Below, piece after piece: positions 19,291-26,264 of a DNA stretch of 64,000 nucleotides. The notes under the pieces are model-generated. The model had not been told where the DNA came from and searched no databases. It saw only the letters and a program-made list of their open reading frames with translations. Both the position numbers and the translations under genes were made by a program. The stretch covers positions 1 to 64,000 of the forward strand of contig CAIRYQ010000111.1 in assembly GCA_903882875.1 (NCBI GenBank), given 5' to 3'. The DNA is from an uncultured Spartobacteria bacterium. GTDB lineage: Bacteria > Verrucomicrobiota > Verrucomicrobiia > Chthoniobacterales > Chthoniobacteraceae. Each line of letters begins with the position of its first letter. The stretch's first letter is position 1.

Positions 19291-20791
19291 CTAAAGTGCG
19301 GGGATCGCATAGGAAAACGCGACTTCATGATTTTTCCGCACGCCATTTTCCTGCTCGGGGAGGACGGAGCGCACGAGGTCGGCGGTCACTTTTTCCGGCG
19401 AGACGGTGATGCGCATGTAGCCGGGGCTGCCGAGGAGCTTGCCGCTGAGGTAGCCGTATTCGGCGGCGGTGCGCGGCGCGGAGTTCATGTCGCCGCGCGG
19501 CGGGTTTCCCGACTGCGGGACTTCCTGATAGACGATGCCGTCGAGGTCCTGCTTCGCGAAAATGTGATCATGCCCGTGGAAGACGATGCTGACGTGATTT
19601 TGCACGAGGAGCTGGTGGATGGGCGCGGGCCAGCCGGGGCGGTGCGCCGCGAAGCCGTCGGTGCCGTCCGCATTTTTCCCCGCTCCATTCGTAAAACGGC
19701 GCGGCCTCGGAGCCGCCGCGGCCCTCGATGCTGGAGCCGCCGATGAGGTGGTGCAGGAAGATGAATTTGAACTTCGACCTGCTGTCTTTGAGCGTGCGCT
19801 TGAGCCACTGGTATTGCGCATCGCCGAGCGAGCGCGTCCAGTTGTCGTCGCGCGCCTCGCCGCTGAACCAGAACGGATCGAGCACGACGAAGAGCGCGTC
19901 GCCCCAAGTCCACGCGTAGTAGTCCTGGAGCAGGCCGAGCTTCGGGTGTTTGAATTCGTCGCCGGTGTAGAAGCCGTCCGGAACCGGATTCGCGAAATAT
20001 TTTTCCCGCATCGTGTTCGACCACACGGCCTCGTTCTCGTCGTGGCGGCGTCCGCCCATTTCGCCGTCGTGATTGCCGAGCGCGAGGAAGACGGGCGCAC
20101 TGTGGCCGATGAGGCCGAAGTAGTACCGCTGTGCGACGTATTGCTTCGCGGCGAGTTCGTAGCGGCGGCGATACTTGTCGGTCATGAACGTGTCGCCGAG
20201 GTCCACGAGAAAATCGGGCGCGTCGGAGAGGCAGTTCAGCAGCGAGCGTTCGAGCAGCTTTGGCTCGACCTTGTCATCGAGATGCGGATCGGCCTGCACG
20301 GTGAAGGTGAACGTGCGTCCCGGCGCGCGCTGCGTGCGGAACGAATGCTCTGGCTCCGCCGTCCACGCTCCATTCGCCGCGCGCGTGCTGAGCTTGTAGA
20401 AATATTGTGCATCGGCTTGCAGCCCGGTGATCGGAATCTCGGCAGGCACACCGGTTTTCAGTGCAAACGTGGCGGTCTTCGCAACGGGCGCACCGGCCTT
20501 CGGGCCGAACTGAATCACGCCCTCGCGATCCGCATACGCGAGCACGCTGGCGGTGATGGAGTTTTTCGTCGGGCGCACGAGCACGATGTCGAGCGCGTGC
20601 GCGGGAACCTCCGTGCGGAAGAGGCTCGCGAGAGCCTCGATGGGAACGTCGCGGCCATTGCCGCCTTTGCCACCATTTCGTTGACCGTCTTTGCCACCAC
20701 CTTGGCCGGACGGCTTGTCGTCGTCGGAAAATGCGAGCAGTGACACGCCCGAGATCAGCGCGGCGGATGCTATGAAGTGCGAGGCTTTCAC
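19291..20791 (-). CDS. Secreted metallophosphoesterase (purple acid phosphatase-like), split by a frameshift
   Basis: Starts at GTG 20791, preceded by GGAGG (20796-20800) and followed by a signal peptide (SHFIASAALISGVSLLAF). After a Gly/Lys/Asp-rich linker there is an Fn3-like N-terminal domain typical of purple acid phosphatases, then the metallophosphatase motifs QADPHLD, LVDLGDTF, LALGNHDGE, FIFLHHLIGG and, after the break, VFHGHDHIFA. The reading frame changes at a G4A5 run (19673-19681): upstream reads FYEWSGEKC, downstream the family sequence continues as KNADGTDGF, so one extra base in the run restores a ~499-residue protein. With all five metal motifs intact, an assembly error or very recent mutation is more likely than an old pseudogene. 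It follows the sulfatase-like gene by 13 nt. Confidence 0.8.
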
Positions 20792-20804: not shown

Positions 20805-22271
20805 TCATTTTGCCTTTTCCGCCTCCGGGCCGTTACCGCCGCCGCCTTTGCCACCCCTGTCTCCTCTGCGGGGCTCAAATGGCCTCGCCTTCGCAGGATC
20901 GTATTTCGGATTCGGCACGGGCATCCCGGCGTTCACGAGCTTCAGGTATTCGTTCAGCCGACGCTCAAGCTCGGCGGTCTCCTTCGCGCGCTCCTTCACG
21001 AGGTCGTGCTGCTCCGCGATGTCCTTCGAGAGATCGAACAGCATCGGCGCATTTGTCTCGTAGGGATGGATCAGCTTTTCGCTGCCGAGCAGGATTGCGG
21101 ACGCGGGTCCGAGCTCATCCTTGTCGTAGTGCGGAAAGTGAACCACGAACTCCTCGCGCGCACGCTTCACGGTCGCGTTCGTCGTGCCGCCGAGCACTGG
21201 CGTGAGGATGCCGCCCTCGATGCCTTTTGGCAGCGGCTCCTTTACGCGCGCGATGGCCGCGATGGTCGGGAAAATGTCCACCGTCGTCGCCATCACATGC
21301 GAGCACACGCCCGGCTTGATGCCCGGTCCGCGCACGATGAATGGCACGCGAAGTCCGCCTTCCCACACGGTGCCCTTGCCATTCGTCAGCGGGCCGTTGG
21401 CGTTGCGGCCCTGCGCGCCGTGGTCGGCGGTGTAGATGAAGTAGGTGTTCTTCGCGATGCCGAGTTCGTCGAGCTTCGCCATGAGCATGCCGATGGTCGT
21501 GTCCATGTCCTGCGTCACCGCCGCGTTGGCGACCATGCGCTGGTCGCGCTCCGTCGTCGCGCGCCTGCGCACATCCGCGTAAGTCTCCGGCTTCGCATCG
21601 GTGCCGCCGCGCCCCGCGTAGTGCGAGATTTGCAGATAGAACGGCTTCCCCGCCTTCGCCTGCCGCGCGATGAAATCCATGCCGCGCTCAGTGTTCAGGA
21701 ATGCCTGCTTCGGGTTCGGATTCTCCACGTTCTCCGGCCCGCCGTTGTTGTTCGGCCCGTCGTTTTCCTCAAAGCCGTGCCGCGTCGGGCTGATGCGACC
21801 GACGTGCCATTTTCCAAAGTGCGCCGTCGCGTAGCCCTCGTGCTTCAGCATCGAGGCGACGGTCACCTCGCTCTCGGGCAACTGCGAAATCTGCTGCGGC
21901 GGGATCACCTTGCTGCCTTCCTCCGAATACGTACCCTCCTTTCCGCCCTTGGCCTCGCCAACGAACGTCATGTGCAGCGCCGTCGGACTTTTCCCCGTGA
22001 ACAGCGCCACGCGCGTCGGCGTGCAGCGCGGCGATGCGGCGTAAAAATTCGCAAAGCGCATTCCGTCCGCCGCGAGTTTTTCGAGCGAAGGCGTGTGCGC
22101 GAGCGTGCTCTTCGAGCCGGGCACCGTGTCGTCCATCTGCACCGAGCACGAGGCCCAGCCCTGCGCCTCGCCCATGATGACGACAAAATTCGGCCGCGTG
22201 TCTGCCGCGCGGACATGCGATGCGAGCACTGCGCACATTGCGCCGAGAAAAATAGCGCGTGTGATTTTCAT
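20805..22271 (-). CDS. Secreted sulfatase-family protein with altered metal site
   Basis: 488 residues, ATG 22271, signal peptide ending near VRAAD. The formylglycine motif is present as CTPTRVALFTGK with Cys83, so it is of the Cys type and would need an FGE made elsewhere. Other sulfatase marks are GYATAHFGKWHVG, KPFYLQISHYAG, YIYTADHG-like, and GKGTVWEGGLRVPFIVRGPG. In the first strand, where most sulfatases have an Asp-Asp metal pair (ADDLGWGD), this protein has MGEAQGWAS, so two usual calcium ligands are replaced. The C-terminus ends in a Gly/Lys/Arg-rich tail. It is the middle gene of a three-gene operon (9 nt after the YHYH-PEBP gene, 13 nt before the phosphatase gene). Active sulfatase is possible but not assured. 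Confidence 0.85.
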   Translation of the reverse strand: MKITRAIFLGAMCAVLASHVRAADTRPNFVVIMGEAQGWASCSVQMDDTVPGSKSTLAHTPSLEKLAADGMRFANFYAASPRCTPTRVALFTGKSPTALHMTFVGEAKGGKEGTYSEEGSKVIPPQQISQLPESEVTVASMLKHEGYATAHFGKWHVGRISPTRHGFEENDGPNNNGGPENVENPNPKQAFLNTERGMDFIARQAKAGKPFYLQISHYAGRGGTDAKPETYADVRRRATTERDQRMVANAAVTQDMDTTIGMLMAKLDELGIAKNTYFIYTADHGAQGRNANGPLTNGKGTVWEGGLRVPFIVRGPGIKPGVCSHVMATTVDIFPTIAAIARVKEPLPKGIEGGILTPVLGGTTNATVKRAREEFVVHFPHYDKDELGPASAILLGSEKLIHPYETNAPMLFDLSKDIAEQHDLVKERAKETAELERRLNEYLKLVNAGMPVPNPKYDPAKARPFEPRRGDRGGKGGGGNGPEAEKAK

Positions 22272-24074: not shown

Positions 24075-24097
24075 GTGCGCAGGTTGCGGGGGCTCAC

Positions 24098-24114
24098 CTT
24101 AAGGCAACGTGAAG
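24098..24114 (-). promoter_or_regulatory. Candidate response-regulator site facing the YHYH operon
   Basis: Read on the minus strand: CTTCAC-GTTGC-CTTAAG. It ends 23 nt before the YHYH-PEBP start codon. It matches the site at 24160-24176 on the opposite strand at the half-sites (CTTCAy-N5-sTTAAG). The 6-N5-6 half-site spacing is what OmpR/PhoB-type regulators such as PmrA use. Candidate only. Confidence 0.5.
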
Positions 24115-24159
24115 CCCGCGCACTTGCGGAAATTTTTTCACGCTCAGCTTTCTCCCGCG

Positions 24160-24176
24160 CTTCATCTCCCGTTAAG
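24160..24176 (+). promoter_or_regulatory. Candidate response-regulator site facing the regulator gene
   Basis: Plus strand CTTCAT-CTCCC-GTTAAG, ending 22 nt before the ATG of the response regulator. It is the counterpart of 24098-24114 and would allow autoregulation of the two-component operon. Confidence 0.5.
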
Positions 24177-24198
24177 GTGCGGCTCCGACAATCCCGCC

Positions 24199-24852
24199 AT
24201 GCGCATCCTCATCGTCGAAGACGAGCCCGACCTCCTCCGCGGCCTCGCGCGTTCGCTGCGCGAGGAGGGCTACGCCGTGGACACGGCGGCGGACGGCGAG
24301 GATGGCCTGTTCAAGGCCGTGGAGGTGAATTACGACGCCGTCGTGCTCGACGTGATGTTGCCGCGCCTCGACGGATGGGAGGTGCTGCGGCGGCTGCGGG
24401 AGAAAAGGAAAACGCCCGTGCTGCTGCTCACCGCGCGTGACCGCAGCGCCGACCGCGTGCGCGGCCTCGACACCGGCGCGGACGATTACCTTGTGAAGCC
24501 GTTCGATCTCCCCGAACTGCTCGCGCGGCTGCGCGCACTCATCCGGCGCAGCGCGAGCGAGGTACGCTCGGTGATCGAGATTGGCGACGTGGCGGTGGAC
24601 ATCGCCGCGCGCGCCGTCTCGCAAAAGAGGAAGCCCGTGGTGCTCACCGCGCGCGAGTATTCGCTCGTCGAATTCCTCACGCTGCACCGCGGCGAGGTCG
24701 TCACGCGCACGCAGCTCTACGAACATCTCTTCGACGAGAACGACGACTCGCTCTCGAATCTCCTCGACGTGCATGTCTCAAACGTCCGCAAGAAACTCGG
24801 CCACGACTTCATCGCCACGCGGCGCGGCCACGGCTACTGCATCGAGGGGTGA
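24199..24852 (+). CDS. OmpR-family response regulator
   Basis: 217 residues from ATG 24199. Receiver domain 1-118 with VEDEPD acidic pair, phosphoacceptor Asp51 (AVVLDVMLPRLDGWE), Thr in LLLTARD and Lys in DYLVKPFDL. The C-terminal winged-helix domain (about 128-217) has the family pattern LTAREYSLVEFL, LHRGEVVTRTQLYEHLF, LDVHVSNVRKKL and IATRRGHGYCI. Its stop overlaps the kinase start (TGATG). It likely controls itself and the divergent YHYH-PEBP/sulfatase/phosphatase operon through the paired sites in the 124-bp intergenic region. Stimulus unknown. Confidence 0.95.
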   Translation: MRILIVEDEPDLLRGLARSLREEGYAVDTAADGEDGLFKAVEVNYDAVVLDVMLPRLDGWEVLRRLREKRKTPVLLLTARDRSADRVRGLDTGADDYLVKPFDLPELLARLRALIRRSASEVRSVIEIGDVAVDIAARAVSQKRKPVVLTAREYSLVEFLTLHRGEVVTRTQLYEHLFDENDDSLSNLLDVHVSNVRKKLGHDFIATRRGHGYCIEG

Positions 24853-26264
24853 TGCGTTTCCCAAAGTCCATCCGCTGGCGGTTGCAGCTCTGGTATGGCG
24901 CGCTGCTCGTCGCAGTGCTGTGCGGATTCGGTTTCACCGCATTTCATTTTGAAAAGGCTCGGCGCTTTCGCCGGATTGACGAGGAGTTGCAGGTGCGCGT
25001 CGCCGCGCTTGTCGTCGCGCTGCGTTCGACGAACCGCCCTGTGCCGTCCAACGAACCGGACAGCGGCACGCCGTCGCAGCCAGGCAGGCAGCGCGCGCCG
25101 GGGACGCCGCCGCTCGGCGAACTGCGGCTCACCCCGCAGCAGTCCGCACTCTTCGGTGATGGTGCGGAACATTACTTCGCCGTCTGGCTGCGCGAGAAGG
25201 AGCCGGTGCTGCGTTCGCCGAATGCGCCGGAGAACATTCCGCAGCCGCAGAGCCGCGACGCCGCCGTGCGGACCCGCGGGAAATTTCGCGAGTCGTTCAT
25301 CTTCTCCGCACCGGTGGACTGTGTGCTCGTGGGGCGCTCGATCGCTGTCGAGGAGTCGGAACTGCAAAAATTCGCCGCGGTGCTCGCGGCCATCGGCGGT
25401 GCGGTGCTCGCCGCGGGGATGATCGGCGGCTGGTGGCTCGCGACGCGCGCAATCAAACCGGTGGACGACATCACCGCCACGGCTGAAAAAATCGCGGCGG
25501 GCGATCTTTCCCAGCGCATCAGCACGGCGGAGACGGACAGCGAACTCGGGCGCCTCGCCGCCGTGCTCAACGCAACGTTCAAGCGGCTCGACGCGGCTTT
25601 CGCACAGCAGGGACGCTTCACCGCCGACGCCGCGCACGAGCTGCGAACGCCCGTGTCCGTGCTGCTCACACAGACCCAGTCCTGCCTCGCGCGCGAGCGG
25701 CCCGCCGCTGAATATCGCGAGACAATCGAAGCGTGCCAGCGTGCCGCACAGCGGATGCGCGGACTCATCGAGTCGCTGCTCGAACTCGCGAGAATTGACG
25801 CCGGGCAGGAGCCGCTGCGCCGCGAGGGGTGCGATCTTTCCAAAATCGCTGCCGACTGCGTCGAATTGATCCGCCCGCTCGCGGCGAAGCGCGGCATCAC
25901 GATCGATGCGGATCTTTCCGCCACGCCGTGCCGCTGCGACGTGGGCCGCATCGCGCAGGTCGTCACAAACATCCTCGCCAACGCCATCGAATACAACCGT
26001 GACGGCGGCTGCGTGCGCATCGCCACCGCGCGCACGAACGGCACGGTCGTGCTCACCGTCCACAACACCGGCCCCGGAATTTCCGTCGCGGATCTGCGGC
26101 ACATCTTCGAGCGATTCCACCGGGCAGACAAGGCGCGCACCGCAGGTCACGCGGGGCTCGGCCTCGCCATCGCACAGGCCATCGTCCAAGCGCATGGCGG
26201 CAGCATCAGCGCCGCAAGCGAACCGGGTGCGGACGCAACTTTCACCGTCTGTCTGCCCGCATGA
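24852..26264 (+). CDS. Sensor histidine kinase, partner of the OmpR-type regulator
   Basis: 470 residues from ATG 24852, overlapping the regulator's stop. First membrane helix at about 13-33 (LWYGALLVAVLCGFGFTAF), a periplasmic sensor region of about 140 residues, second helix at about 178-198 (VLAAIGGAVLAAGMIGGWWLA), HAMP linker, HisKA with H-box FTADAAHELRTPVS (His near 262), N-box NILANAIEYNRDGG, G1/F/G2 boxes (VHNTGPGIS, IFERFHR, GHAGLGLAIAQAIV). Complete catalytic set. It resembles QseC/PmrB/CusS-type kinases. The sensor region shows no named domain. Confidence 0.95.
   Translation: MRFPKSIRWRLQLWYGALLVAVLCGFGFTAFHFEKARRFRRIDEELQVRVAALVVALRSTNRPVPSNEPDSGTPSQPGRQRAPGTPPLGELRLTPQQSALFGDGAEHYFAVWLREKEPVLRSPNAPENIPQPQSRDAAVRTRGKFRESFIFSAPVDCVLVGRSIAVEESELQKFAAVLAAIGGAVLAAGMIGGWWLATRAIKPVDDITATAEKIAAGDLSQRISTAETDSELGRLAAVLNATFKRLDAAFAQQGRFTADAAHELRTPVSVLLTQTQSCLARERPAAEYRETIEACQRAAQRMRGLIESLLELARIDAGQEPLRREGCDLSKIAADCVELIRPLAAKRGITIDADLSATPCRCDVGRIAQVVTNILANAIEYNRDGGCVRIATARTNGTVVLTVHNTGPGISVADLRHIFERFHRADKARTAGHAGLGLAIAQAIVQAHGGSISAASEPGADATFTVCLPA

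Follow-up and report, generated by a model that had tools for sequence, protein, structure and literature searches.

Predicted tandem-repeat operators link an OmpR-family two-component system to a divergent operon for an exported YHYH protein in Verrucomicrobiota

What controls the genes that diverge from this short intergenic region, with a two-component system on one side and an operon for an exported YHYH protein on the other? The widespread YHYH proteins (PF14240) are uncharacterised. Here they occur in Verrucomicrobiota, whose members do not lend themselves easily to genetic work. In the window, which is the whole 64-kb stretch of DNA analysed, the following genes lie on either side:

24199..24852, plus strand, OmpR/PhoB-family response regulator of 217 aa (Pfam)
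24849..26264, plus strand, sensor histidine kinase (HAMP, HisKA, HATPase_c), with a GTG start overlapping the regulator stop codon
22281..24074, minus strand, exported YHYH + PEBP protein of 597 aa, first gene of the divergent operon (Pfam)
20805..22271, minus strand, sulfatase of 488 aa with a CTPTR motif, at most 10 nt behind the YHYH gene (Pfam)
19303..20791, minus strand, calcineurin-like phosphoesterase, third gene of the operon, with an apparent frameshift at about 19670-19695 (Pfam)

The first-pass annotation had named an OmpR-family regulator and YHYH plus PEBP, sulfatase-like and phosphatase genes. Pfam upheld these identities and also confirmed the kinase. The regulator contains a receiver domain (PF00072) and a Trans_reg_C winged helix (PF00486), both above cut-off, keeps the equivalents of phosphoacceptor D51 and of K101, and is classified as a member of the OmpR/PhoB family. 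Because of its CTPTR motif, the sulfatase may be a formylglycine-type enzyme rather than a degenerate homologue. Compared with the intact orthologue at L183, the phosphoesterase is split, following frame -3 to about residue 373 and then frame -1; either a mistake in the assembly or genuine gene disruption accounts for the break, and intact copies are present in relatives. The YHYH part of the first protein had no convincing match among solved structures, and clear PDB relatives were found for the PEBP part only.

The divergent region is 124 bp long, as previously proposed, and direct reading of the sequence bore out the claim that it holds two 17-bp copies of identical layout. The minus-strand copy, CTTCACGTTGCCTTAAG (24098-24114), and the plus-strand copy, CTTCATCTCCCGTTAAG (24160-24176), face outward and end 23 nt before the YHYH-PEBP ATG (24074, minus strand) and 22 nt before the regulator ATG (24199, plus strand), respectively, which agrees with the spacing given before. 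The likeness of the two copies runs past 17 bp, since both go on ...TTAAGGTG, and the shared element is therefore about 20 bp long with the GTG included:

24095..24114, minus strand, operator box of the YHYH promoter, CTTCAC-GTTGC-CTTAAG-GTG (26.7 bits, window-free matrix)
24160..24179, plus strand, operator box of the regulator's own promoter, CTTCAT-CTCCC-GTTAAG-GTG (20.5 bits, window-free matrix)

An earlier start for the regulator, GTG at 24109, was rejected: the plus-strand box would become coding, and orthologues begin at a conserved MR[IL]L.

A search of the genome for CTTCAY-N5-STTAAG, which the first-pass annotation had called for, returned only two exact matches in the 5.78-Mb genome, and these are the same two that lie in the divergent region and are the only ones in the window. 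For scoring, a 20-column matrix was derived from 20 sites in other genomes only, leaving out the window. Both were far above the runner-up position in the 64 kb (9.5 bits), and by simulation about 0.15 sites per Mb per strand are expected at 18 bits or more. The 20 matrix sites were themselves recognised by their resemblance to the window boxes, so it is their positions, together with the further tests, that count as independent evidence. Chance similarity draws on GC-rich DNA that holds several one-mismatch CTTC...AAG strings (18 matches in the genome at no more than one mismatch); it is contradicted by these matrix scores and by the conservation across families, the fixed -10 position and the co-occurrence with the regulator described below, and can practically be dismissed. 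The box pair is real and far above chance.

The value of the first-pass reading hung on whether the half-sites are conserved in orthologous intergenic regions, and on examination they were. For this comparison, orthologues of both the YHYH protein and the regulator were gathered. Apart from the window's own locus, 14 regulator loci were compared, drawn from the same order and from L053, a close named relative. The outward pair was present before the regulator in nine of them (L040, L041, L043, L044, L045, L048, L049, L051, and L052) and a single box was directly upstream in three (L046, L050, and L053). The remaining two (L042 and L047) had no box directly upstream of the regulator; boxes were found 1 to 3 kb off on the same contigs. 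Across the phylum, 29 further orthologues showed the pair in eight cases (L217, L218, L219, L223, L231, L235, L239, and L240), a single box in five, and none directly upstream in 16. Twelve of these 16 begin 7 to 39 nt behind a co-directional ORF (among them L222, L225, L226, L228, L230, L233, L234, L238, L241, L242, and L243), so a promoter at that spot is not needed. Several of the ORFs ahead of box-less regulators end in a ...ARRAAKLDPIEALRHE-like sequence, which we take to be reminiscent of MacB-type permeases, and at such loci this family of regulators may have been redirected to control an efflux operon. The divergent gene is a YHYH gene in L217, L218, L219, and L048 (Pfam) and in L012, L024, and L033 (tblastn), and in other loci it encodes, for example, an intradiol-dioxygenase-like or DUF4405 protein. 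At L235 and L239, where the regulator has His at the residue matching PmrA position 195, the divergent target is intradiol-dioxygenase-like (PF00775; assigned by sequence likeness at L239) and not YHYH.

The two copies are inverted relative to one another and might accordingly belong to a single long inverted repeat that works as an RNA hairpin, a terminator, or one looped operator, and not mark two promoters. Against this, the gap between paired boxes in relatives ranges from 15 to 66 bp with no significant helical phasing (Rayleigh p 0.21), single boxes stand before many genes, and a separate -10 follows each box, which should leave both boxes out of the RNA. We regard the inverted-repeat reading as very improbable and treat the boxes as two separate elements.

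In an alignment of 24 sites, with column 1 at the C of CTTCAY, an A at column 30 and a T at column 34 were conserved, the pattern that marks a sigma70-type -10 hexamer (nAnnnT) at columns 29-34. The corresponding features predicted in the window are as follows:

24081..24086, minus strand, predicted -10 hexamer CAACCT, matching the conserved A30 and T34
24187..24192, plus strand, predicted -10 hexamer GACAAT, 1 bp nearer the box than in most relatives
24074, minus strand, predicted transcription start on the first base (A) of the YHYH-PEBP start codon (-10 T plus 7; start codon at column 41)
24199, plus strand, predicted transcription start on the first base (A) of the regulator start codon (-10 T plus 7; start codon at column 40)

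Among 33 boxes outside the 24-site set, A30 was present in 30, T34 in 29, and both in 27, while A and T at any other offset occurred in at most three of the 33. Some of these test boxes had been found with a 36-column model; the 21 phylum-level ones were chosen on columns 1-20 alone, are thereby the cleaner test, and behaved alike (19 with A, 18 with T). A -35 hexamer was not enriched, with at least four matches to TTGACA in 7 of 52 promoters, which is about the random rate. Each box spans about -40 to -21, so that half-site 1 occupies the -35 region (about -40 to -35) and half-site 2 lies in the spacer (about -29 to -24); the -10 lies 11 bp past CTTAAG, and 10 bp past the equivalent half-site in the window's regulator promoter. 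Because the box to -10 distance is fixed, no -35 is recognisable, and PhoB and PmrA boxes overlap the -35 region, the predicted architecture is that of a PhoB/PmrA-type class II activator promoter.

The same overlap with the promoter core would also suit a repressor. The regulator might bind and cover the -35 region so that polymerase is blocked, with phosphorylation relieving or tuning the block, which would amount to negative autoregulation; PhoB and MtrA do repress or activate according to the position of their sites (PMC10294691; MtrA example in PMC7380067). Promoters without a recognisable -35 (7 of 52) should, however, be weak in the absence of an activator, and the near-invariant distance from box to -10 is a need of activators, not of repressors; activation by PhoB demands strict spacing to the core promoter (PMC10294691). 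Repression is thus unlikely, though it is the most credible of the alternatives considered, and we prefer activation.

Because the predicted starts coincide with the A of both ATGs, the two window mRNAs are probably leaderless. Many target genes in relatives likewise begin at columns 40-42. A literature search on leaderless Verrucomicrobia promoters found no paper. The first-pass annotation had missed three features: the fixed -10 without a -35, the predicted absence of leaders before the start codons, and the additional regulon members in relatives.

The distribution of boxes between genomes was used to ask which regulator reads them. A box preceded the YHYH gene at 6 of 8 regulator-positive loci and at 1 of 20 regulator-negative loci (Fisher 5e-4). 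The two regulator-positive misses were L011, where the gene is apparently operon-internal, and L034, where the box lies outside the scanned stretch. The regulator-negative set includes a close relative with 74% YHYH identity in which the box is absent. The box tracks the regulator and not the YHYH gene.

The contact residues of the regulator also changed together with the box. At PmrA positions 187/188/192/195/196/210, the window regulator has S-N-V-S-N-R versus T-N-V-H-N-R in PmrA. Orthologues with Phe, Tyr, or His at residue 195 had operators ending in CTTAAT in 8 of 8 cases, with TTCAT in L232. Where the residue is Ser or Ala, this last base was G, as in CTTAAG, in 16 of 18 cases, the exceptions being L043 and L221. 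The covariation (p 3e-5) reflects three changes on the regulator tree and has modest support from it, and the pattern was spotted post hoc. PmrA itself has His at 195 and XTTAAT as half-site 2 (PMC3973317). As a hypothesis, residue 195 would set a specificity rule for PmrA-like regulators, and the pattern offers a concrete candidate for such a rule.

Because the presence of the regulator predicts the box and its contact residues covary with the box, the neighbouring regulator is the likely reader of both boxes; the first-pass proposal to this effect gains support from co-occurrence across genomes and contact-residue covariation. Another OmpR-family regulator could read them instead, the neighbouring regulator gene being merely one target. 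The lone regulator-negative exception, G124, fits this idea: it has boxes before a YHYH gene and a phosphoesterase gene, and its incomplete assembly yielded no orthologue of the regulator at more than 45% identity; either an assembly gap or another reader would explain it. Both G124 boxes, G124:C63 (L148:8899) and G124:C174 (L189:4474), are good ones. The boxes nevertheless follow the neighbouring regulator between genomes, its helix covaries with them, and all eight further OmpR-family regulators identified in this genome lack both the SNVSNR contact set and its SNVSN recognition helix. A different reader is therefore quite unlikely.

Taken together, the boxes are very probably tandem-repeat operators, with half-sites 11 bp apart, of the adjacent OmpR/PhoB-type regulator, which would activate both divergent, probably leaderless promoters in class II fashion. 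The phosphorylated regulator would bind each box as a head-to-tail dimer, and each box would replace the -35 hexamer of its own sigma70-type promoter. Because each box would serve its own promoter, one signal would turn on both directions: on one side the regulator-kinase operon, as positive autoregulation, and on the other the YHYH-PEBP/sulfatase/phosphoesterase operon. The two transcripts would begin on the start-codon A and would be leaderless. The sites and their conservation, the fixed -10 without a -35, the co-occurrence with the regulator, and the match and covariation of its recognition helix come directly out of the sequence comparisons; that the regulator physically binds, that it activates and does not repress, where the transcripts start, and that translation is leaderless are inferences from them.

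The extent of the regulon differed between the window genome and its relatives. In its own genome, no further box was found up to E = 5 with the 36-column model, and because no further site passes this limit the circuit there seems to consist of these two promoters only. In relatives, extra boxes precede stand-alone phosphoesterase genes (L183, L184, and L189, identified by Pfam for L183 and by likeness of the first residues for L184 and L189), other YHYH genes, and an LTXXQ protein gene (L190), mostly on the same contig as the regulator. That stand-alone phosphoesterase genes have their own box argues that the phosphoesterase is a functional partner, not a bystander. There is about an even chance that these data describe a regulon of exported proteins (YHYH, phosphoesterase, and LTXXQ) that extends across Verrucomicrobiota and is mostly local, with class II promoters and transcripts starting at the start codon, in which residue 195 would set the last base of half-site 2 (Ser/Ala with CTTAAG; Phe/Tyr/His with CTTAAT), operator and regulator having changed together about three times. 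YHYH proteins thereby gain a candidate regulator, a predicted operator, and a target list across Verrucomicrobiota, and the locus offers a defined predicted activator-dependent, probably leaderless promoter. A literature search found no link between such a regulator, its operator, and YHYH genes, and likewise no paper on YHYH regulation.

Finally, we compared the locus with known systems. PmrA is among the closest solved structures to the window regulator (PmrA-DNA 4S04/4S05; 8JO2). The PmrA box consists of CTTAAG and XTTAAT placed head to tail with five bp between them (PMC3973317), is also described as a YTTAAK direct repeat (PMC10927774), and in pbgP holds the -35 inside half-site 1 (PMC4660055, which also lists the DNA contacts). 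The 6-N5-6 likeness to PmrA pointed out earlier is correct by the first two of these papers. The window boxes share with those of enterobacterial PmrA (BasR) the direct 6-N5-6 geometry and a near-identical half-site core, half-site 2 (CTTAAG/GTTAAG) being close to YTTAAK, and the regulator keeps Asn188, Val192, Asn196, and Arg210. In contrast to PmrA, half-site 1 is CTTCAY, one to two bases away from YTTAAK, Thr187 and His195 are both replaced by Ser, and the target genes are unrelated to lipid A modification.

Named subfamilies did not accommodate the proteins. The regulator scored 211 bits against the PmrA equivalog NF007928 (cut-off 330) and 223.9 bits against cztR_silR_copR TIGR01387 (cut-off 279.2), and the kinase scored 258 bits against the heavy-metal (CzcR/SilR/CopR) type (cut-off 292.6); CzcR/SilR/CopR was the top-scoring NCBIfam subfamily for regulator and kinase alike. 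An AgrR-like operator was rejected, since the AgrR inverted repeat ATKACA-N4-TGTMAT (PMC7380067) does not fit the direct repeat of the window. The tandem pho box overlaps the -35 site of its promoter (PMC3348028), and PhoB resembles the window system in this placement and in its strict core-promoter spacing; its half-site sequence is unlike that of the window, and the regulator is nearer PmrA, CopR, and QseB than PhoB (NCBIfam). In Salmonella, PreA/QseB activates both preAB and the neighbouring ygiW operon, with long leaders mapped (PMC2653508). As in the window, a regulator-kinase operon adjoins an operon for a small exported protein, whereas the partner genes are not YHYH and the long leaders contrast with none predicted here. 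The switch is of a known type, PmrA/PhoB-type class II activation in which the regulator turns on its own operon together with an adjacent one, as for preAB/ygiW; the regulator and the regulon are new.
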